Below are positions 2,421 through 15,520 of a stretch of DNA of 64,000 bases, piece by piece (position 1 is the stretch's first letter; each line of letters opens with the position of its first letter). The notes beneath the pieces are model-generated. The model made no database searches. It saw nothing but the letters and a program-made list of their open reading frames with translations, and was not told the origin of the DNA. The translations under genes were made by a program, and so were the position numbers. Origin of the DNA: an uncultured Hyphomicrobiaceae bacterium (GTDB lineage: Bacteria > Pseudomonadota > Alphaproteobacteria > Rhizobiales > CAMYJA01); the NCBI GenBank assembly GCA_947258705.1, contig CAMYJA010000002.1:122478-186477 (forward strand), written 5' to 3'.

Positions 2421-3404
2421 CTAATCAGTTTTATCCATTGAAACCGGGTTTAAAATTCCATCGGCCGGATCGCCGTCGAGCTTGCCCTCCACGAAAACAC
2501 GGCTGACCAGGAAATCTTCGGCGTCCAGCGTCGTCAGGTCGGATTTGCTCAGGGACTTGTTCCTGTCCGCGAAAAGACGGTTCGCCTGACGCAGACGGGC
2601 GCGGTCGAGAGCGTTGCGGATCGACCGGGCGTTGGCGAAATGCGGCAGTTTCATGCGCAGAGGAATATAGTCGTGCAAGGCTTTTTTGGCGTCGGCACTG
2701 AGCTGGTAATTGAGGTCGGACAGCATCAGTTCCGCAATTGCTTCGAGCTCCTCCGATGAGTAATCCGGGAAATCGAGGTGATGGGCGATACGCGAGCGCA
2801 TGCCCGGATTGCTCTCGAAAAAGCGGTCCATCTTGTCCTTGTAGCCGGCCAGAATGACAACCAGATCGTCGCGGTTGTTTTCCATGACCTGCAGCAGGAT
2901 CTCGATCGATTCGCCGCCGTAGTCCCGTTCGTTTTCGGGCTTGTACAGGTAATAGGCCTCGTCGATGAACAGAACCCCGCCCATTGCCTTTTTAATGACC
3001 GCCTTGGTCTTTGGCGCGGTATGGCCGATATATTGTCCGACGAGATCGTCGCGGGTTACCGAAACGAGGTGGCCCTCGCGTACGTAACCGAGGCGATGCA
3101 GAATCTCGGCCATGCGGAGTGCAACCGTGGTCTTTCCGGTGCCGGGATTGCCGGTGAAATTCATGTGCAGCGTCGGTGTCTCGGACGTCAGATCAAACTG
3201 ACGGCGCAGACGGTCAACGAGCAGCAGTGCCGCGATTTCCTTGATGCGGGTTTTAACGGGCACCAGCCCGACCAGTTCGCGGTCCAGTTTGTCGAGGACC
3301 TCCTGAACCTGCGATTGTTCGAATTCTTCCTGCAAATTAACCGAGGCTCCCTCCGGGAGGATCTCGGTATTTTGTTCAGCGGTGGCATTTTCGGTGTCGC
3401 TCAT
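2421..3404 (-). CDS. cbbX: Red-type RuBisCO activase CbbX
   Basis: AAA+ ATPase that removes inhibitory sugar phosphates from red-type form I RuBisCO by pulling on the large-subunit C-terminus. 327 residues. Walker A is GNPGTGKTT (Lys91), the pore-loop region YIGHT is at about 125-129, Walker B is GGVLFIDEA (Asp148-Glu149), followed by an arginine-finger region in GMRSRI and the C-terminal AAA lid. It is the third member of the cbbLSX block, 148 bases after cbbS across two strong hairpins that may set its expression below that of cbbLS. The family assignment is firm. No strong ribosome binding site is seen in front of the ATG at 3404. Confidence 0.96.
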
Positions 3405-3552: not shown

Positions 3553-3990
3553 CTATGCGCGCTCGCCTTCGGGCTTGTCGGCCGCATAAGATGTGATCGT
3601 GTAGCCCATCGAACGGCCGTCGCGCTCGGTTCTTTGGAGCTTGAAGCCTGGCTCGTTAGGCGGCCGATTGACGATATAGGACATGCGCGGCGCTTCCCAG
3701 CCATGTGTATTGTCAAAGGCTGTTACGCGGATATACATGTTCGGGAAGGTCTTCCGGCAATCGTTGATTTCCATCAAGATGCCGGCCGGGTCCTTCAGAT
3801 CGAACATCGGCATGCCGAACATATCCCAATATGTGTTCCGCGGATGCGGATCATCGGTGTATTCGATATTGACCGCCCAGCCATTATCAAGGGCGTATTT
3901 GATCTGAGCCGTGATTTGCTCGTCTGTGAGTTCGGGCAGGAAAGAAAACTGCCCCTGTGTAACCCGGTTTCCGGGATTGGACATTGCCAT
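3553..3990 (-). CDS. cbbS: RuBisCO small subunit, red type
   Basis: Small subunit of form I RuBisCO, eight copies of which cap the large-subunit octamer. 145 residues. It has the red-type features: the short N-terminus with GQFSFLPELTDEQI, the WxMFGMPMFDL core strand, the CRKTFPNMYIRVTAFDNTHGWE region, and the C-terminal extension with RPPNEPGFKLQRTERDGR that forms the central-pore hairpin in red-type enzymes. A strong ribosome binding site (AAAAAGGAG) lies 9 bases before the ATG at 3990. It is 50 bases downstream of cbbL and in the same operon. Confidence 0.97.
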   Translation of the reverse strand: MAMSNPGNRVTQGQFSFLPELTDEQITAQIKYALDNGWAVNIEYTDDPHPRNTYWDMFGMPMFDLKDPAGILMEINDCRKTFPNMYIRVTAFDNTHGWEAPRMSYIVNRPPNEPGFKLQRTERDGRSMGYTITSYAADKPEGERA

Positions 3991-4040: not shown

Positions 4041-5534
<1,494 letters not shown>

Positions 5535-5639: not shown

Positions 5640-6722
5640 TTATTCTGCTGCTTTGGCCGCTCCTACGACTGGATCGAGCGAACCGGCTGCATAGCGCTTG
5701 GCCATTTCCGCAATTGGTATGACCTTGATCTTGTGCGCCTGTCCGGACGTGCCGAAGGCTTCAAACCGGTCGTGACAGACTTTTGCCATGGCATCGGTTG
5801 CCGGCTTGAGGAACTTGCGCGGGTCGAATTGCGATTTGTCTTCCATCGCGACCTTGCGCATCTGGCCCGTTGCCGCCATACGCAGGTCGGTATCGATATT
5901 GACCTTGCGGACGCCGGTCTTGATGCCGCGTGCGATTTCCTCGACCGGTACGCCATAAGTCTGCGGCATTTCTCCGCCGAACTCGTTGATGACGTCCTGG
6001 AGCTCCTGGGGAACGGATGACGAGCCATGCATAACGATATGCGTGTTCGGCAGACGTTTGTGGATTTCCGCGATGACGGTCATGTCGAGAATGTCACCCG
6101 TCGGCGGGCGGGTGAATTTATACGCACCGTGCGAGGTGCCGATGGCGACGGCGAGGGCGTCGCACTTGGTTTGCGTGACAAAGTCCAGCGCTTCATCGGG
6201 ATCGGTCAAAAGCATGTCTTTCGACAATGCGCCTTCGAAGCCATGGCCGTCTTCCGCCTCGCCCTTGCCGGTTTCGAGCGAGCCGAGGCAACCCAGTTCA
6301 CCTTCGACCGATGCGCCGACCATATGCGCCATGTCGGTCACGGTCTTGGTGACATTGACGTTGTAATCGTAAGAGGCGGGGGTTTTGGCATCCTCTTCGA
6401 GCGAGCCATCCATCATGACGGAAGTGAAACCGTGCTGGATCGCGCTCAGGCAGGTGGCGGCGTTGTTGCCGTGATCCTGATGCATGCAGATCGGAATTTC
6501 GGGATAGATCAGCGTCAGGGCCTCTATCATTTTCGCAAGCATGATGTCGTTGGCGTATTCACGGGCGCCCCGGCTGGCCTGAATGATGACCGGTGCGTCG
6601 CATTTGCGCGCCGCCTCCATGATGGCGATGCCCTGTTCCATATTGTTGATGTTATAGGCGGGAACGCCGTAATCGTTTTCAGCAGCGTGATCGAGAAGCT
6701 GTCTTAATGTGATGAGTGCCAT
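5640..6722 (-). CDS. cbbA: Class II fructose-bisphosphate aldolase, Calvin-cycle subtype
   Basis: Zn-dependent aldolase joining triose phosphates to fructose 1,6-bisphosphate and, in CBB bacteria, also making sedoheptulose 1,7-bisphosphate. 360 residues. Metal-site signatures are [11 protein letters not shown] (class II HxDH motif), [23 protein letters not shown] and [11 protein letters not shown], with the NIDTDLRMA phosphate-binding end. The start ATG has ATAAAGGAG-like purines just upstream (rc of TTTATTCTCCTTG). It lies 41 bases after pgk and before cbbL. It would supply both bisphosphates that need dephosphorylation, yet no bisphosphatase is present here (see pfp). Confidence 0.96.
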
Positions 6723-6763: not shown

Positions 6764-7978
6764 CTAATAGGATGTCAGCGCGACAATGCCCGGTAATTGC
6801 CGGCCTTCAAGCCACTCCAGAAATGCCCCGCCAGCCGTGGATATATATGTGAATTGATCCGAGACATTTGCTGCGTTTAGTGCCGCGACGGTATCGCCGC
6901 CGCCTGCGATCGTTGCCAGCTGGCCGCTTGATGTGAGTTCAGCCGCTTTTTTCGCGAGGCCGAACGTGCCTTCGCCAAAGGGTTCGATTTCGAACGCGCC
7001 CAATGGTCCGTTCCAGAGCAGTGTACGGCAATCCGAGATTTCATCGTTCAGATTTGCCAAAGTGGCATGTCCCACATCGAGGATCATACCATCATCAGGT
7101 ATATTTGCGACATCAAAGGTCCCAATGTCGGCGCCCGCCTTGAATTCGGATGCGACCCGTGCGTCCGTGGGGAGAAGAATCTTGCAATTCATTTCAGCGG
7201 CGCGGCTCAGGATTTCCTCGACCGTATCGGCAAAGTCGGGTTCGCAAAGCGAGTTACCAACTCCGATGCCCTGGGCGTGCAGAAATGTATTGGCCATGCC
7301 GCCGCCGATGATGAGCTTGTCGACCTTGGCGACCATGTTGGTCAGAACGGGAATTTTCGTCGATACCTTGGCGCCGCCGACGACGGCGGCTACGGGCCGT
7401 GCGGGGTTGTCGAGGGCCGATCTGAGCGCACTGACTTCCAGCATCAGGGACCGGCCGGCATAGGCGGGCAGAATTTCGGCAATTGCGGCGGTGGATGCGT
7501 GGGCCCGGTGCGAACAGGAAAAGGCGTCATTGACATAAATGTCGCCAAGCCTGGCCAGGCTTTGGGCAAACCCGCCGTCGTTTTTCTCCTCGCCTTCATG
7601 GAAGCGCAGATTTTCGAGCAGCACAACCTGGCCGTTTTCAAGCGCGGCCACAGCGCTTTCCGCCGCTTCGCCAATGCAGTCATCGGCGAAACCAACCGGC
7701 GTTCCGTCCATCAGACCGCGCATTTTGTCAGCGACGGGTTTCAAGGTCATTTCAGGAACACGAGCACCTTTCGGGCGGCCGAAATGCGACAATATGACGA
7801 CCTTCGCCCCGCGCCGGGCAAAGTCCTCAACAGTCGGCAGAAAGCGCTCGATGCGGGTCGCATCGGTTACCTGCCCATCCGCCGTGGGGACGTTGAGATC
7901 CGCCCTCACGAGGATGCGCTTGCCGGCAATGTCGAGGCCGTCAGTCGATCGCAGTTTATCGAGCGCCATTTCGGTCAT
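6764..7978 (-). CDS. pgk: Phosphoglycerate kinase
   Basis: Phosphorylates 3-phosphoglycerate with ATP in the reductive direction of the CBB cycle. About 404 residues from the chosen start. Visible motifs are [11 protein letters not shown], the substrate-binding [59 protein letters not shown] and the C-terminal GGGDTVAAL nucleotide site. The ATG at 7978 overlaps the gap stop as ATGA, the normal translational coupling; a second in-frame ATG at 7969 is also possible. The longer frame up to 8032 would intrude into gap and is rejected. Confidence 0.96.
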
Positions 7979-8985
7979 ATGAGCTTGCCCATAGCAACGG
8001 CTGTGTCGCTCATGCGGTTGGAGAAGCCCCATTCATTGTCATACCAGGAGACGACCCGGCAGAACGTGCCGTCGACGACCTGCGTGCTGCCCGAGTCGAA
8101 TGTCGAGCTTGCGGATGAATGGTTGAAGTCGGAGGACACGAGTTTCCGGTCGTTGACTTCAAGGACGCCTTGCACGCCGTTCGAAGCCGCGTTCGAGACG
8201 GCCTGGTTGATCTCATCGACCGTGGTCGGACGGGCCGATGTAAACGTAAGGTCGATGAGGCTGACATTCGGCGTCGGTACGCGAATGGCTGCGCCGTCGA
8301 GCTTGCCCTGCATTTCAGGCAGGACGAGGCCGACCGCGCGGGCGGCGCCCGTCGAAGTCGGGATCAGGTTCGATGCTGCGCCGCGGGCGCGGTAGAAGTC
8401 GGAGTGGAAGGTGTCCACGGTCCTTTGGTCGCCGGTGTAGGAATGGATGGTCGTCATGTATCCGCGCTCGATGCCGATCGAGTTGTTGAGCGCCTGCGCC
8501 ACTGGTGCGAGGCAGTTGGTGGTGCATGACGCGTTCGAAACGACGTGATGGCCGGATTCCAGCTTTTCGTGATTGACGCCGTAAACTACCGTCAGATCGG
8601 CTTCGCCGCAAGGCGCTGAAACGAGAACGCGCTTGGCGCCGCCATCGATGTGGCGGGAGGCCGACTTCTTGTCGGTGAAGATGCCCGTGCATTCCATCAC
8701 GATGTCGACATTGAGGTCGTTCCAGGGAAGGTCTTCAGGATTTCTTTCGGAGCAGAATTTAATGCTCTGGCCGCCGACATTCATATTGCCGTCAGACAGG
8801 TTGATATCGCCGTTATAGCGGCCATGCACGCTATCGAATTCAAGCAGGTGAGCGTTCATTTCGGCCGGCGCCAGATCGTTGATGGCGACGAATTCAAGGT
8901 CGTCGCGGCCCGATTCCAGATAGGATCTCAGAACCAGGCGACCGATACGGCCGAATCCATTGATGGCTACGCGTTTTTTCGACAT
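7975..8985 (-). CDS. gap: Glyceraldehyde-3-phosphate dehydrogenase, type I
   Basis: Reduces 1,3-bisphosphoglycerate to glyceraldehyde 3-phosphate. 336 residues, standard length. The Rossmann start is VAINGFGRIGRLVLRS, the catalytic Cys lies in SNASCTTNCLAP, the catalytic His in TTIHSYTGDQ, and the C-terminal SWYDNEWGFSNRM is canonical. NDLAPAEM after the second beta strand leaves the cofactor preference (NAD versus NADP) undecided by eye. It overlaps pgk by 4 bases and follows tkt by 48 bases. The cbb name would be cbbG. Confidence 0.97.
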   Translation of the reverse strand: MSKKRVAINGFGRIGRLVLRSYLESGRDDLEFVAINDLAPAEMNAHLLEFDSVHGRYNGDINLSDGNMNVGGQSIKFCSERNPEDLPWNDLNVDIVMECTGIFTDKKSASRHIDGGAKRVLVSAPCGEADLTVVYGVNHEKLESGHHVVSNASCTTNCLAPVAQALNNSIGIERGYMTTIHSYTGDQRTVDTFHSDFYRARGAASNLIPTSTGAARAVGLVLPEMQGKLDGAAIRVPTPNVSLIDLTFTSARPTTVDEINQAVSNAASNGVQGVLEVNDRKLVSSDFNHSSASSTFDSGSTQVVDGTFCRVVSWYDNEWGFSNRMSDTAVAMGKLI

Positions 8986-9033: not shown

Positions 9034-11064
9034 TCAGGCGCTGGCTATTTTTTCCCGTGCCATTTCGGCGACATGTTTGGCCGTGATGCCGAAGTGCTCG
9101 TAAAGCGCATCGCCCGGGCCGGAGGCGCCGAAGCCCTTCATGCCGACGAAGCCGCCATGATCGCCGAGCCAGCGGTCCCAGCCGAATCGGACGGCGGCCT
9201 CGATGCCGATGCGCGGCGCGTCGCCGAGAACTTCATGGCGGTATTTGTGATCCTGGGCGGCAAAGAGTTCCCAGCATGGCATGGACACGACCGCAGCCTT
9301 GACGCCGTTGTCGGCCAGGATGTCGGCCGCGGCAATTGCGATCTCGACTTCCGATCCGGTCGCGAGCAATGTGACATCACGTCCTCCATCGGCTTCGCGA
9401 AGCACATAGGCGCCCTTGGCCGAAAGGTTTTCGTCGGTATGTTCGGTCCTGACGGTCGAGAGTTTCTGACGGGTCATCGACATGATCGAAGGCGTATTCG
9501 GGGTCGACAGGGCCATTTCCCAGCATTCCGCCGATTCCACCGTATCTGCCGGGCGGAAAACATTGAGGTTTGGTATGGCGCGCAGGCTGGCAAGGGTTTC
9601 GACCGGTTGATGGGTGGGTCCGTCTTCGCCAACCCCGATGCTGTCATGGGTCATGACGTGGATGACACGGGCTCCCATTAACGCGCCGAGGCGGATTGCG
9701 CCGCGGGAGTAATCGGCAAAGACCAGGAAGGTTCCGCTATAGGGTACGGCGCCGCCATGCAGGGCGAGGCCGTTCATCGCTGCCGCCATGCCGAATTCGC
9801 GCACGCCATAATGCATGTAATTGCCCGACGCGTCGTCCGGCGTGATGGGTTTATACTGGCTCGTTTTGCAGCCATTGGAACCCGTGAGGTCGGCCGAACC
9901 GCCAACGATGCCCGGTACCAGCGGCAACAGCGCTTCCGCAACCATGGCGTTCGACTGGCGGGTGGCCACGGCGCCCGGATTAGCACCACCGGCGGAAACT
10001 TCCGCCTTCAGGCTCTTCACGGCATCTTTGATATTGGCCATCACAGCTTCGCTGACCGGATTGGCGAGAGATGTGCGTTCCGCATCGCTCAATTTCGTTG
10101 CGCGGCCGGTCCAGGCGTCATATGCGCCACGGCCGCGGCTGCCGGCAGCCTGCCAGCTTGCCATGATGTGGTCGGGCACGACGAAGGGCGGGTGATCCCA
10201 GCCAAGCTCGACGCGCGCGGCGGCAATTTCTTCTTCGCCGAGTTTCTCGCCATGAGTGGCTGCCGTTCCTTGCTTGTTCGGCGCGCCAAAGCCGATGATT
10301 GTCTTGCAGGCGATCAATGAAGGCTTGTCCGATTTCTGGGCGGCCTCGATTGCGCTCGCGACGGCTTCCGGATCATGTCCGTCGACACGGACGGCATCCC
10401 AGCCCGATGCCTCGAAACGTTTCAGCTGATCGTCGGAGCACGACATGTCGAGGGTGCCGTCGATGGAGATATTGTTGTCGTCCCAGAGCAGGATGAGCTT
10501 GTTCAGCTTGTAATGGCCGGCCATGGAGATCGCTTCATGGCTGACGCCTTCCATCAGGCAGCCATCGCCTGAAATAACATAGGTATAGTGATCGGAAATA
10601 TCGCTTCCCAGCCGGTCCGCCACCATTCTCTCGGCCAGCGCCATGCCGACGGATGTGGCGAGCCCCTGACCCAATGGTCCGGTGGTCGTCTCGACGCCAA
10701 CCATATGGCCGTATTCCGGGTGGCCGGCGGTCTTGGAACCCAATTGGCGGAAATTCTTGATGTCGTCGATCGTCACGCCGGGATAGCCGGTGAGATAAAG
10801 CAGGGAATAAATCAGCATGGAGCCGTGGCCCGCGGACAAAACGAAGCGGTCCCGGTCATACCAATCGGGATTTGCGGCATCATATTTAAGGAAGCGGGTG
10901 AACAACACGGTGGCGACATCGGCCATACCCATCGGCATGCCCGGATGGCCGCAGGCTGCCTTTTCGACGGCATCCATGGACAATGCGCGGATGGCGTTGG
11001 CCATTTCCTTGTGGGTGGCGGTCTCGGTGTCTGTTCCGCCAGAGACTGCTGCGGCCTCAGTCAT
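9034..11064 (-). CDS. tkt: Transketolase
   Basis: Thiamine diphosphate enzyme that moves two-carbon units between sugar phosphates in CBB regeneration. 676 residues, typical. Visible are CGHPGMPMG near the N-terminus, the ThDP/metal motif [13 protein letters not shown] ... [14 protein letters not shown], the second domain with [35 protein letters not shown], and the C-terminal domain with [16 protein letters not shown] precedes the ATG at 11064. It is second in the operon, 23 bases after the first phosphoribulokinase gene. Confidence 0.97.
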
Positions 11065-11087: not shown

Positions 11088-12023
11088 TTACAGGGCGTGT
11101 TCGCCGAGTGCGGCTTTAACCATGTGATATGCAACGAGCAGCTGGGTCAGCGCCAATGGATGGCTGACGGTTACTCCATTGCTGTTTTCTATTGCGCCTA
11201 CATTCTCGCGTAGGTGTCCCGCTTCCGGGATCAGTTTCCAGAGGGAATCCTCTATTCTTTCGGCTCTTGCGTCGCTGAGGTTGCCATTGATTTCGAGCAC
11301 ATCGACCGGCTTGCCGTCATAGCGGGTCAGCTCCAGATTGATGTGGCTGTCGCCGACGGCGTTCAAAATCGGGGCAAAATCGGGATGGGGAAGCGTCGGG
11401 CGCAGGATTTGACGCACGTCCAGATGCCTGTCCGCCTGTTCCTTATCGGTCGGCGGGGGCTGAAAACGAATGATGATGTCGGTGAATTCCCGTTGCGGGT
11501 CAATGAAACGGGGGCTGTCGTCACGTCTTTTCTCAAGAGAGGCGCGGACTTCCTCCTCGGAATATCCACGCTTCAGGGTATCGCGCTGGATTTTCCAGCG
11601 AATGCGCAGATCCTCGTCCGGATGGAGGAATATTTTCACATCGTAGCAATCGCGCATGGCTCGGGTCGAGTAGCCGAGAAGCCCCTCGGCGATGACGTAA
11701 TCCTTGGGAACGATATATTCCGGGCGGTCAAGCGTGCCTTTATCGTGATTATAGACGGGCTTGAGTATGGGCTGGCCGGCGCGCAGCTGGCGCAGATGCT
11801 GCTCGAGTATGTCGATGTAGTTGCCGCGCGGATCCAGCGCCGAAATGCCGTTTTCGGCGCGCTCATTGCGGTCATATGAATGATAGTCGTCGGTGCAGAT
11901 GACCGTGCACCGATCCTGACCGAGAATTTTGGCAACGCCGGCGGACAATGTCGTCTTGCCCGTCGCACTGTCTCCAACAATTCCCAAAATGACAGGACGA
12001 TCGACTTTTTTAGGCATATTCAA
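11088..12023 (-). CDS. Phosphoribulokinase, class II-like (cyanobacterial/plant-like)
   Basis: Predicted to phosphorylate ribulose 5-phosphate to ribulose 1,5-bisphosphate. About 311 residues with the P-loop GDSATGKTT (Lys23). Its landmarks match cyanobacterial and plant enzymes, not the usual proteobacterial Cbb[66 protein letters not shown] and ADRHLDVRQ-type late motifs. The first codon of the frame is TTG at 12023 with GAGGAGC 8 bases upstream; an ATG at 12017 is the alternative. It is first in the long minus-strand CBB operon. A second, non-orthologous PRK lies 320 bases upstream. A uridine-kinase-like activity cannot be excluded without assay. Confidence 0.82.
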
Positions 12024-12072
12024 ACCAGATCGCTCCTCGGACTTCTCCCAATGGCTTATGCTTTAGCGCCGA

Positions 12073-12123
12073 ATTTCCCTGCCGGGCCTATTTCCCTGCC
12101 GGGTCTATTTCCCTGCTGGAATG
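12073..12123. repeat. Three tandem copies of a 17-bp repeat
   Basis: Units ATTTCCCTGCCGGGCCT (12073-12089), ATTTCCCTGCCGGGTCT (12090-12106) and a diverged third copy (12107-12123). They lie 50 bases upstream of the class II-like PRK gene, in what should be its 5' region, so copy-number change could alter the leader or promoter of the operon. Confidence 0.75.
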
Positions 12124-12303
12124 TCAGCGTTCTGCAAAAACCGGTAATTTTGCATCATTTTCATGCAACGCGCCTCGGGGCGGATCATTCTTGATCTCTG
12201 GACTTGCCGAGCGACTTGCCGCTTCAACAATTTGTGAGGCACGGGATTGTCTTAAACATTCCTTAAGGCGCGCGAAACAGTCTCAAGGGTAGGTCTTTCA
12301 TAT

Positions 12304-12333
12304 CTATTGGGTAGGTTTTTACCTACCCAATAG
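12304..12333. promoter_or_regulatory. Perfect 13-bp inverted repeat between the two PRK genes
   Basis: Arms CTATTGGGTAGGT (12304-12316) and ACCTACCCAATAG (12321-12333) with a TTTT loop. It begins 9 bases beyond the cbbP stop (minus strand) and sits upstream of the long CBB operon. There is no T-tract on the minus strand after the stem. It could be a terminator of cbbP transcripts, an RNA processing site or a dyad operator; the sequence alone does not decide. Confidence 0.55.
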
Positions 12334-12342
12334 GATGGTATT

Positions 12343-13248
12343 TTATGAGTTTTTCATTTTCCGGCTATTTTCAACCAGATTATGGATGATCGGCGTCAGC
12401 AGGAGCTCGATGGCAAAGCCCATCTTGCCGCCTGGCACGACGATATCGTTGCGCCGTGACATGAAGCTGCCATGAAGCATGCTGAGCAGATGCGGGAAAT
12501 CCGTTTCGAACTTCTTCGGATCCCTGAACCTTATGATGACCATGCTCTCGTCGGCGGTGGGTATGTCGCGGGCGATAAAGGGATTGGAGGTATCGACCAG
12601 GGGCACGCGCTGGAAATTGATATCGGTTCGCGAAAATTGCGGCGTGATGTAGTGAACATAGTCGTACATGCGGCGGAGAATCGTATCAACGATCGCTTCC
12701 TCGGAATAGCCGCGCATGTTCTTGTCCCGGTGGATCTTCTGGATCCATTCAAGGTTCACGATCGGCACGACGCCGATGAGAAGGTCGACCCATTGCGCGA
12801 CATTGCAATCGGCGCAGACGACGCCACCGTGAAGGCCTTCGTAGAAGAGAAGATCGGATCCCTCCGGCAAATCCTCCAATGGCGTGAACTGGCCTGGATT
12901 CAAATTCGTGCCCAGCCGGGCGTTATGCTCGTCGCACTCCTCGTCATTGTGAAGGTAGTAGCGTCTTTTGCCGGTACCGGACGCGCCATAGGAGCTGAAC
13001 AATCTTTCCAGCGCCTCGAAATCATTGGCGCGGGGGCCGAAATGGCTGAAGTTCAGGTTTCCCTTTTCTTCTTCGGACTTCATCGCGGCCTTCATTTCGG
13101 CGCGATCATAGCGGTGAAAGCTGTCGCCCTCGACGACCGAGGCATTTACTTTTTCACGAAAAAAGACATGCTCAAACGCTGTTTTGACGGTTGATGTTCC
13201 AGCGCCCGACGAGCCAGTCACCGCAATAACCGGATGTTTTGCCGACAT
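12343..13248 (-). CDS. cbbP: Phosphoribulokinase, class I (proteobacterial CbbP)
   Basis: The standard proteobacterial phosphoribulokinase, making RuBP from ribulose 5-phosphate with ATP. 301 residues. Signatures are the class I P-loop VTGSSGAGTSTVK, EGDSFHRYDRAEMK, FSHFGPRANDF, LLFYEGLHGGVV, the strongly conserved VVPIVNLEWIQKIHRDK and TDINFQRVPLVDTSNPFIARDIPTADES (split over about residues 205-232). Class I enzymes are usually allosterically controlled by NADH and AMP. It is codirectional with the main CBB operon but separated from it by about 320 bases with tandem repeats and a large dyad, so it may be a separate unit. Its upstream region is shared with divergent pfp. Confidence 0.95.
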   Translation of the reverse strand: MSAKHPVIAVTGSSGAGTSTVKTAFEHVFFREKVNASVVEGDSFHRYDRAEMKAAMKSEEEKGNLNFSHFGPRANDFEALERLFSSYGASGTGKRRYYLHNDEECDEHNARLGTNLNPGQFTPLEDLPEGSDLLFYEGLHGGVVCADCNVAQWVDLLIGVVPIVNLEWIQKIHRDKNMRGYSEEAIVDTILRRMYDYVHYITPQFSRTDINFQRVPLVDTSNPFIARDIPTADESMVIIRFRDPKKFETDFPHLLSMLHGSFMSRRNDIVVPGGKMGFAIELLLTPIIHNLVENSRKMKNS

Positions 13249-13464
13249 GAATATTCCTCTCTAAAATCTCGCATGTTTTTGGCGCGCCCTCGAAAAGGCC
13301 CGCGATAATGTTTTCCTAAAAGAACTAAAATGGAAATTAATGCAAGGGTGTGCGCTCAATTGCCACGCATATTTTTTTGCCCGAAACGGCGTTCGTGTTT
13401 TTTTCGCAACCCCGAAAAAACTTTGTCGGGTATTCATCATGAGGGGGGCTTTTTTTCAAAAGCA

Positions 13465-13493
13465 TTGCGTAAAGGATGAACTGCGGATATTCA
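13465..13493 (+). promoter_or_regulatory. Possible sigma70-like promoter for pfp
   Basis: TTGCGT (13465-13470), a 17-base spacer, then TATTCA (13488-13493), placed 65 bases before the pfp ATG in the AT-rich 309-base region between divergent cbbP and pfp. The region also holds several T-runs and a CCCGA/TCGGG dyad (13411-13430). The match is only moderate; no CbbR-type site could be identified with confidence. Confidence 0.3.
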
Positions 13494-13557
13494 CTGTCGC
13501 GATGGATGTCCGGATAATTACGGCGTCTTGAGAAAAAAGCTTTCCAGGGAGAGAAAC

Positions 13558-14814
13558 ATGACAAAGAATGCGTTTTATGCGCAGTCGGGCGGCGTAACGG
13601 CCGTTATCAACGCATCGGCGGCAGGCGTGATTGAGACCGCTCGTCAGCGTGCGGACCTTATAGGCAATGTCTATGCCGGCCGTAACGGGATTATTGGTGC
13701 TCTGACGGAAGATCTTATCGATACGTCGCAGGAAAGCGATGAGGCGATTGCCGCATTGCGCTACACGCCGTCGGGCGCGTTCGGATCATGCCGCTACAAA
13801 CTCAAGAGCCTGGAGGAAAACAGGCGTGAGTATGAGCGCCTGATCGAAGTCTTCAAGGCGCACAATATCGGATATTTTTTCTATAATGGCGGCGGCGATT
13901 CCGCCGATACCTGTTTTAAGGTGTCGCAACTCTCGGAGACGATGGGCTATCCGGTTCAGGCCATTCATGTCCCGAAGACTGTCGATAACGATCTGCCCAT
14001 TACGGATAATTGCCCCGGCTTCGGGTCGGTCGCAAAATATATTGCCGTGTCGACCCGGGAGGCGTCCTATGACGTGCGGTCGATGGCGAAGACCTCGACG
14101 AAGATTTTTGTCATCGAGGTGATGGGGCGCCATGCCGGCTGGATCGCGGCGGCGGGCGGGCTCGTTGCGGATGAGAAAAACGACATCCCTGTCGTGATTC
14201 TCTTTCCCGAGGTCGAGTTCGATCAGGAAAAATTCATGGCCCAGGTGCGGGAGCGAGTCGAAAAATACGATTATTGCACGATCGTCGTCTCGGAGGGCGC
14301 GCATTGGCCCGACGGCAAGTTCCTGGCCGAACAGGGCACCCGCGATGCCTTCGGTCATGCGCAACTGGGCGGCGCCGCGCCGGTGGTCGCAAATATGATC
14401 AAGGACGCGCTCGGGTATAAATTCCATTGGGCCGTGGCCGACTATATGCAGCGCGCGGCACGGCATATCGCTTCGAAAACGGATGTCGAGCAGGCCTATG
14501 CGCTGGGCAAGGCCGGCGTTGAGTTCGCTCTGGCCGGCGAAAATTCGATCATGCCCACGGTGGTGCGGACATCGAACAATCCCTATGAATGGGAGATCGG
14601 CAAGGCGCCATTGTCGGAGGTCGCCAATGTCGAGAAGATGATGCCGACCGAATATATCTCCGATGACGGATTCGGCATTACGGACGCGTGCCGGGAATAT
14701 CTGGTGCCGCTTATTCAGGGTGAAGACTATCCACCCTACACGAAGGGCATGCCGGATTATGTGACGCTGAAAAACATGCCGGTCGAACGGAAGCTCGCCG
14801 CGTTCGAACTCTAG
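13558..14814 (+). CDS. pfp: PPi-type 6-phosphofructokinase
   Basis: Phosphofructokinase-family enzyme of 418 residues predicted to use pyrophosphate reversibly: fructose 6-phosphate + PPi to fructose 1,6-bisphosphate + Pi. The PPi type is read from two positions: GGGD at 111-114 places Asp114 where ATP enzymes have a Gly (E. coli Gly104), and PKTVDND at 139-145 has Lys140 where ATP enzymes have Gly124. Catalytic Asp143/Asp145, the VEVMGRHAGW-type substrate loop (IEVMGRHAGW) and VSEGAHW are present. The ATG at 13558 is preceded by GGGAGAG; an upstream in-frame codon at 13528 is unlikely. It is divergent from cbbP. Related methanotroph and symbiont enzymes act on sedoheptulose phosphates and can stand in for CBB bisphosphatases; that role is inferred here. 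Confidence 0.9.
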   Translation: MTKNAFYAQSGGVTAVINASAAGVIETARQRADLIGNVYAGRNGIIGALTEDLIDTSQESDEAIAALRYTPSGAFGSCRYKLKSLEENRREYERLIEVFKAHNIGYFFYNGGGDSADTCFKVSQLSETMGYPVQAIHVPKTVDNDLPITDNCPGFGSVAKYIAVSTREASYDVRSMAKTSTKIFVIEVMGRHAGWIAAAGGLVADEKNDIPVVILFPEVEFDQEKFMAQVRERVEKYDYCTIVVSEGAHWPDGKFLAEQGTRDAFGHAQLGGAAPVVANMIKDALGYKFHWAVADYMQRAARHIASKTDVEQAYALGKAGVEFALAGENSIMPTVVRTSNNPYEWEIGKAPLSEVANVEKMMPTEYISDDGFGITDACREYLVPLIQGEDYPPYTKGMPDYVTLKNMPVERKLAAFEL

Positions 14815-14840: not shown

Positions 14841-14912
14841 CCTTCTCCTGGAACGCTCACTCCCTGGGTGATGAGCATGTTCTAGGGCGTGTTCGAGCGC
14901 TCCAGGAGAAGG
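14841..14912. terminator. 18-bp inverted repeat between convergent pfp and the regulator
   Basis: CCTTCTCCTGGAACGCTC (14841-14858) pairs with the sequence at 14895-14912 over 17 of 18 positions with a 36-base spacer. The right arm encodes the last residues of the regulator (LLLERS). The stem would form at the 3' end of both transcripts, but there is no clear U-tract. It may be a bidirectional termination or stabilising structure, or a duplication scar. Confidence 0.5.
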
Positions 14913-15520
14913 CCGACCGCCTGGGCGCGATTGCGGACGCCGAGTTTGTCGTAAAGATTTCGGAGATGAAACTTGACGGTATTGGTGGAGACCGAAAACT
15001 TGTCCGCGAGCTCGATATTGGTCGAGCCTTCGGATAGCCCCTTGAGCATTTGCTGTTCGCGCTTGGTCAGCTCGTCAAGGGGATTGGAGGTCAATTCGCG
15101 CGCGTCGAAATAGGGGAAGATCATGCGGCCGGACGCGACTTCCGCCGCGGCGTTGAGAAGATTCTCGGGCGGTTCGGTCTTGGAGACGAAGGCGGCCGCG
15201 CCCAGGCCCATGGCCCGCGCCGGGGCATCCTGTCCGTGATAACCCGTATAGATGATGATCTTCGGTGGATTGGCTAGCGCCTGCATGGCTTCGAGCACGA
15301 AGGCACCATCGCCGGGCTCCATGACCCAGCCGACTATACCGACATCGAATTGGATGCGGCCGACCGCATCGAGGAAACGCTGGCCGTCAGAGGCGGAAAA
15401 AGCCACCGACAGGCGGTCGTCCTCGGCGACAAGCGACTTTAGGCCGCGCCGGATCAGAGGATTCTTGTCGGCTATGCCGACTGAGACGAGCGTATGCTCG
15501 ATTGTAGGATTTTCCGACAA
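14882..15520 (-). CDS. LuxR-type response regulator without phospho-acceptor Asp
   Basis: 212 residues: an N-terminal receiver-like domain (about 10-130) and a C-terminal LuxR/FixJ helix-turn-helix (about 145-205) with LTKREQQMLKGLSEGSTN and STNTVKFHLRNLYDKLGV. In the receiver, the acidic D18 and the late Lys114 (FVSKTE) are kept, but the segment FDVGIVGWVMEPGDG puts Gly64 where the phosphorylated Asp belongs. It is therefore likely to be phosphorylation-independent, perhaps ligand- or dimer-controlled. It is convergent with pfp and no histidine kinase is near. A role in controlling the CBB/pfp genes is an inference from position; no CbbR is visible in the window. Confidence 0.85.
   Translation of the reverse strand: MSENPTIEHTLVSVGIADKNPLIRRGLKSLVAEDDRLSVAFSASDGQRFLDAVGRIQFDVGIVGWVMEPGDGAFVLEAMQALANPPKIIIYTGYHGQDAPARAMGLGAAAFVSKTEPPENLLNAAAEVASGRMIFPYFDARELTSNPLDELTKREQQMLKGLSEGSTNIELADKFSVSTNTVKFHLRNLYDKLGVRNRAQAVGLLLERSNTP

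Follow-up and report, generated by a model that had tools for sequence, protein, structure and literature searches.

According to the accessible portions of a 2023 review, phosphoribulokinases (PRKs) are sorted into archaeal, bacterial and plant types, and the plant-type (class II) enzymes carry two regulatory cysteine pairs, Cys16-Cys55 and Cys243-Cys249 (PMC9978339). Three further structures (PDB 9qko, 9qkp and 9qkn), which come from Hyella/Chroococcidiopsis PCC 6712 and Gloeocapsa PCC 73106, were released on 2026-04-08 under the depositor name "cyanobacteria specific PRK", with "Uridine kinase" as the molecule name of 9qkn. A literature search that covered few subscription journals returned neither a publication describing the PDB 9qk* enzymes nor one on tandem non-orthologous PRKs, and yielded no activity assay for a protein of the type called PRK2 below.

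RuBP is an effector of CbbR. A regulatory PRK, which we take to be of class I, was reportedly described in Methylorubrum extorquens by Ochsner in 2017. In the same species, RuBP is a ligand of QscR, as stated in the available part of the source (PMC8388818). A version of the CBB cycle that makes use of a PPi-dependent phosphofructokinase (PPi-PFK) and of an H+-PPase has also been described for symbionts, at least in the accessible excerpt of that paper (PMC4949241).

A CBB locus with two non-orthologous phosphoribulokinases

The window analyzed here, a stretch of 64,000 nucleotides (G000:C2:122478-186477) from a 2.77 Mb genome rated 100% complete (G000), carries on its minus strand, in this order, PRK1, PRK2, tkt, gap, pgk, fba, cbbL, cbbS, cbbX, rpe and gph, of which the last four were named by reading their sequence and position. 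PRK2 (11088..12023, 311 aa, with a TTG start at 12023 or an ATG start at 12017) begins 320 bp downstream of PRK1 (12343..13248, 301 aa) and heads the tkt-gap-pgk-fba-cbbLSX-rpe-gph operon, with genes for transketolase (9034..11064; TIGR00232, 815 bits), glyceraldehyde-3-phosphate dehydrogenase (7975..8985; TIGR01534), phosphoglycerate kinase (6764..8032; NF010569, below cut-off and for the PGK part only), class II fructose-bisphosphate aldolase (5640..6722; TIGR01521, 638 bits), the RuBisCO large subunit (4041..5522; PF00016, 444.9 bits at G000:C2:126590-127513), the RuBisCO small subunit (3553..3990, an ORF) and CbbX (2421..3404, an ORF). Upstream of PRK1 and divergent from it, a PPi-PFK of the PRK14072 type is found on the plus strand (13528..14814), separated from PRK1 by an intergenic region with presumed promoters (13249..13527) and followed by a minus-strand gene for a NarL/LuxR-type regulator (14882..15520; PF00196/PF00072) whose receiver lacks the phospho-Asp. 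Such regulators are conserved in the vicinity of PRK2 operons, with Gly in 47 cases and Ser in one at the phospho-Asp site (48/48 aligned, from the window and 47 loci), and these CBB operons may be under the control of a response regulator that lacks this Asp.

The sequence-only reading had described two adjacent PRKs, non-orthologous and of different types, within a single CBB locus, each with its P-loop. This description holds: both ORFs lie side by side, a P-loop is present in each, the catalytic residues are intact in both, and the two proteins are only 26.6% identical over 214 aa. It had also called the upstream gene a normal proteobacterial CbbP, which is borne out by the class I family score of PRK1 (NF011997, 483.5 bits for a cut-off of 362), by its full-length match to the Rhodobacter sphaeroides enzyme (best PDB match 1a7j, E 1.7e-110, residues 1-296) and by its residues. 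D42, H45, R49, E131, K165, R168, D169 and R173, which we take to be catalytic in class I, are kept in 11/11 rows of the PRK1 subclade and in 37/37 others, and PRK1 also retains the R. sphaeroides residues R31, R187, R234 and R257, presumably linked to allosteric control; class I enzymes are octamers activated by NADH and inhibited by AMP. PRK1 differs from the R. sphaeroides enzyme in its subclade, where all 15 rows have R258 and E273, 14 have S43 (L246 being the only row with A43), and position 222 is D or E.

The class of PRK2

The sequence-only reading had placed the other kinase in the cyanobacterial/plant class, with redox/CP12 control. PRK2 scores 382.8 bits on the phosphoribulokinase model NF005655 (cut-off 236), and its best PDB matches are 9qko and 9qkn (E about 1e-100; 7e-101), whereas matches to canonical class II entries reach about 1e-51 and cover the N-terminal 200 aa only. 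An AlphaFold2 model of PRK2 built from 27 sequences (pLDDT 88) superposes on 9qko with Z 38.8, TM 0.90 and an rmsd of 1.8 over 296 residues at 54% identity, compared with Z scores of 30.0 for the archaeal 5b3f, 24.5-27.6 for class II (6kev, 6gve and 6h7g) and 20.6 for the class I 1a7j. A 53-row tree grouped PRK2 with its relatives in one clade (SH-aLRT 99; 27 rows, including two PDB chains) and placed class II (99; 3 rows) and class I (100; 16 rows) in clades of their own; this tree came from a quick search and has long inter-group branches, fusion and uridine kinase rows are unsurely placed in it, and the archaeal PRK of M. hungatei, present as a 171-residue fragment only, grouped with class II (94).

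The cyanobacterial/plant-type motifs noticed in PRK2 do occur in class II, and the residues of PRK2 at 22/22 checked sites equal those common to class II and archaeal PRK, but such motifs do not place it in class II, from which its own clade stands apart. PRK2 has the catalytic core of the N-terminal part in common with class II, as well as one cysteine, and differs from it in the C-terminal part, where the stretch bearing the C-terminal cysteine pair is missing. PRK2 thus lacks three of the four cysteines that regulate class II enzymes: the Cys16 site is Thr in the window PRK2 and holds no Cys in 89/89 PRK2 rows, the C-terminal pair is absent in 89/89, and the equivalent of Cys55, which alone remains, is kept in 85/89. 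A search for CP12 (PF02672) gave no match in G000 and none in any of the nine alphaproteobacterial genomes searched (G000 and eight others), while it was positive for the S. elongatus control and for a Spirulina that has both a class II PRK and a PRK2. Given the cysteines, the clade and the CP12 search, we rejected the reading of PRK2 as a redox-regulated class II enzyme, and, on sequence grounds, PRK2 is a further, third-clade type of PRK, distinct from class I and from plant-type class II and probably also from the archaeal type. It belongs with the "cyanobacteria specific PRK" structures, to which it is 53-54% identical over the full length (Z 36.6-38.8), although it is alphaproteobacterial and sits among CBB operon genes.

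Judging from the sequences collected, this clade is not specific to cyanobacteria despite the label of the structure database. The 89 sequences gathered are mostly alphaproteobacterial, and so are the 80 PRK2 loci of a contig scan, together with some from SAR324, Myxococcota and gammaproteobacteria and a single cyanobacterial one. GlpX is next upstream of PRK2 in 61/80 loci, TKT, FBA or RbcL is next downstream in 70/80, and RbcL is found anywhere downstream in 29/80, many contigs being short. Genes that are 43-44% identical also occur among CBB-type genes on plasmids of Allomeiothermus silvanus and Mycobacterium intracellulare, in the former as a PRK2-type gene in the order glpX-rbcLS-cbbX-PRK-rpe-fba. 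One of the 80 loci, contig L020 (NZ_VCCH02000096.1), labeled "Mycobacterium sp. KBS0706", carries an Inquilinus limosus-like CBB operon and is likely mislabeled or from a mixed assembly.

It had also been proposed that one of the two kinases might have another substrate, and for PRK2, this could be uridine or another sugar phosphate, given that uridine kinases belong to the same superfamily, that 9qkn bears the name of one, and that some PRK2 carriers have no RuBisCO (see below). We consider this highly improbable. Uridine kinase models score well below their cut-offs on PRK2 (102.3 for 180 bits and 87.8 for 220.3 bits), unlike the PRK model, the 22 checked residues are those of PRKs, and PRK2 is the sole PRK in many RuBisCO operons. 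Profile searches with family cut-offs in an even sample of 289 genomes of the class found 15 genomes with a class I PRK and five with NF005655 (G000, G007, G084, G130 and G239), with both types in G000 only; the four PRK2-only genomes (4/4) all encode a RuBisCO of full length, and none has a class I PRK above the cut-off. Among 50 PRK2 genomes that we picked from the 80 loci, 38 had no class I PRK over the cut-off and 12 had one. Going by such signatures, both enzymes of the window are probably active phosphoribulokinases.

Recurrence of the tandem and the PPi-PFK cassette

In a sample of 101 genomes of the order, class I PRK was found in 44, PRK2 in 10 and both in six, and PRK1 and PRK2 are adjacent in five (G000, G308, G354, G302 and G338), from four families. 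A class I PRK next to a PRK from a further clade that has been little described is thus a real and recurrent arrangement. The four other tandem loci are L036 (G308), L176 (G354), L054 (G302) and L174, the PRK1-bearing contig of G338, where PRK2 runs off the contig end. The two partial PRK2 ends of G338, on L174 and L175, probably do not belong to a single gene, as their longest common run is 59 bp. G329 was left out of the PRK2 count because its PF00485 match lies in the C-terminal half of a 705-aa protein. Proteins of about 705 aa whose residues 411-600 form a PRK-like kinase domain were also seen at L129:1183-3303 (-), L130:1270-3405 (-) and L181:6980-9094 (-), and the first 400 residues gave no Pfam match in the two that were scanned (L129 and L181).

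The five tandem PRK1s form, with L190, a clade of six rows (support 95/92), which grew to 10 rows (support 96) with four PRK1s of family f170 when more class I rows were added. A clade of the tandem PRK1 rows alone was not rejected (p-AU 0.24), while a single clade of the tandem PRK2s (four rows) was borderline rejected (p-AU 0.047). Taken alone, PRK1 is compatible with a single or a repeated origin. A strict tie of the PRK1 subclade to PRK2 was initially seen in 10/11 cases and then discarded, this sample having been picked for PRK2 carriers; in the order sample, with genome lists coded by hand, PRK2 is present in 5/9 genomes of the subclade vs 1/35 other class I genomes (Fisher p 0.0006, a test that ignores relatedness), so that the tie is an association and not a rule. 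Composition did not point to recent transfer either, as PRK1, PRK2 and PFK have GC values of 0.54-0.57 and GC3 values of 0.65-0.70, near those of their neighbors.

The surroundings of the tandem recur as well. In three of the tandem genomes, G000, G308 and G354, PRK1 forms a divergent pair with a PPi-PFK, and the operon lacks its GlpX; the PPi-PFKs of the two relatives are 88-90% identical to that of the window, which belongs by sequence to the PPi-dependent family (NF010675, 652.7 bits for a cut-off of 273). The whole PFK/PRK1 cassette is visible in only these three tandem loci, L054 showing no PFK within the stretch covered and the contig ending in L174; GlpX was not found beside PRK2 in the window or in the four other tandem loci, within the stretches covered. 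The divergent PFK/PRK1 pair, seen outside the window in L036, L176, L252, L253 and L254, heads tkt-pgk in the f170 genomes G305, G351 and G387, which have no PRK2. Elsewhere, at L186:6289-7500 (+), an intact PPi-PFK of a second type, 35% identical, lies between a LuxR-type regulator and PRK2, in the usual place of GlpX. The simplest story is that GlpX with PRK2 and PPi-PFK with class I PRK would be two interchangeable heads of the regeneration operon, the window having parts of both.

G000 has a single GlpX, encoded elsewhere and 37% identical to an operon GlpX, no class I FBPase and one H+-PPase, in keeping with the PPi version of the cycle. The Methylococcus PPi-PFK can reportedly act on S7P and Ru5P, according to Reshetnikov in 2008. 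The locus resembles the version described for chemoautotrophic symbionts and Methylococcus, as far as the available excerpt goes, in its PPi-PFK beside CBB genes and its genomic H+-PPase (PMC4949241), and differs from it in that the PFK here forms a divergent pair with a class I PRK and stands ahead of a second PRK.

Our preferred explanation, which we hold with moderate confidence, is that a PFK/class I PRK cassette came in and replaced glpX ahead of a PRK2 operon already in place, with two active, separately expressed kinases as the result. PRK2, devoid of the thioredoxin/CP12 cysteine switch, would be the resident kinase, and PRK1 with its divergent PPi-PFK would have been inserted ahead of it, where most PRK2 operons have the GlpX bisphosphatase, so that a reversible PPi-linked substitute for FBPase/SBPase would come to be paired with two Ru5P kinases in one cell.

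Alternatively, the tandem could be a transitional redundancy, a snapshot of non-orthologous displacement without division of labor, in which PRK2 is on its way out. If that was the case, the f170 genomes (PFK/PRK1-tkt-pgk-fba-rpe-gph without PRK2) would illustrate the outcome, and the tandem PRK2 rows do have longish branches. Yet the catalytic set is kept in all tandem PRK2s, the tandem is maintained in four families of the order, and the rate of PRK2 relative to transketolase is not significantly raised in tandem loci (ratios of 0.92-1.09 vs a mean of 0.89; p 0.17, in a small test of n=4 vs 17), and decay of PRK2 was thus not retained. We regard this alternative as doubtful.

Separate expression of the kinases, as assumed in the preferred explanation, was considered from the spacer between them. 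Directly after the PRK1 stop lies a hairpin with a 13-bp perfect stem (12303..12334), the longest perfect hairpin in the window and without a T-run on the operon strand; the remainder of the spacer (12024..12302, minus strand) holds three copies of a CAGGGAAAT-type repeat. A similar hairpin is found at the same place in L036 and L176 and, shorter, in L174, thus in four of the five tandem loci counting the window, and the spacer of the fifth, L054, reads by eye as a classical U-tailed terminator; spacers in tandem loci measure about 190 to 380 bp. The hairpin and the 320-bp spacer suggest separate or unequal/attenuated expression. As the operon strand has no U-run and a promoter scan of the window spacer found no promoter-like site, separate transcription is a guess. 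Differential use or regulation of PRK1 and PRK2 appears plausible; if expression is unequal, RuBP supply could be set by two differently controlled kinases, one tracking the energy/NADH state (class I) and one not.

Carriers without RuBisCO and the meaning of the two kinases

No RuBisCO match (PF00016, E<=1e-3) was obtained in three PRK2 genomes that are 99-100% complete, G366, G336 and G324, the last of which also has a class I PRK; PRK2 need thus not mean CO2 fixation. PRK2 operons without rbcL were seen in Methyloceanibacter-like and other genomes (L178, L179 and L180; also L021, L026, L029 and L032), and G289 (L251), a complete genome of the same order, has a class I PRK over the cut-off and no RuBisCO match, a state that we take to be known for Methylorubrum.

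Since QscR responds to RuBP, at least in the available part of the source (PMC8388818), a signal role for some PRKs is a serious rival explanation. Applied to the tandem, one of the kinases would make RuBP as a signal and not as a RuBisCO substrate, like the class I PRK of RuBisCO-less M. extorquens acting via QscR. Like that regulatory PRK, those of G366, G324 and G336 are kept, with intact catalytic residues, in genomes without a RuBisCO match; they differ from it in being mainly of the third type, and they are seen in relatives, not in the window. In the window genome, RuBisCO is encoded in the same operon, and neither kinase is linked to a regulator by the data. We judge this explanation decidedly unlikely. 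A broader proposal, which we also consider unlikely, would be that the switch-free PRK class, labeled cyanobacterial, serves as the usual CBB kinase in many proteobacteria. In several lineages, it would work together with a class I kinase that came in later, and the RuBP made by one of the pair would act chiefly as a signal in regulation; in some RuBisCO-less carriers (one with both kinases), RuBP would serve for signaling alone. Whether RuBP acts as a signal could be tested directly in the RuBisCO-less PRK2 carriers.

The further PRK clade, now structurally solved, supplies the sole PRK in many RuBisCO operons of proteobacteria and lacks the known redox switch; regulation inferred from a class II-like annotation would therefore be wrong for its carriers, and engineered CO2 fixation may find in this clade a PRK without the switch. 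The tandem loci suggest that regeneration steps of the CBB cycle are traded as whole cassettes, one made up of PPi-PFK and class I PRK and the other of GlpX and PRK2. With two distant enzymes for one step of the Calvin cycle, they would illustrate how cells swap or combine parts of a central pathway.
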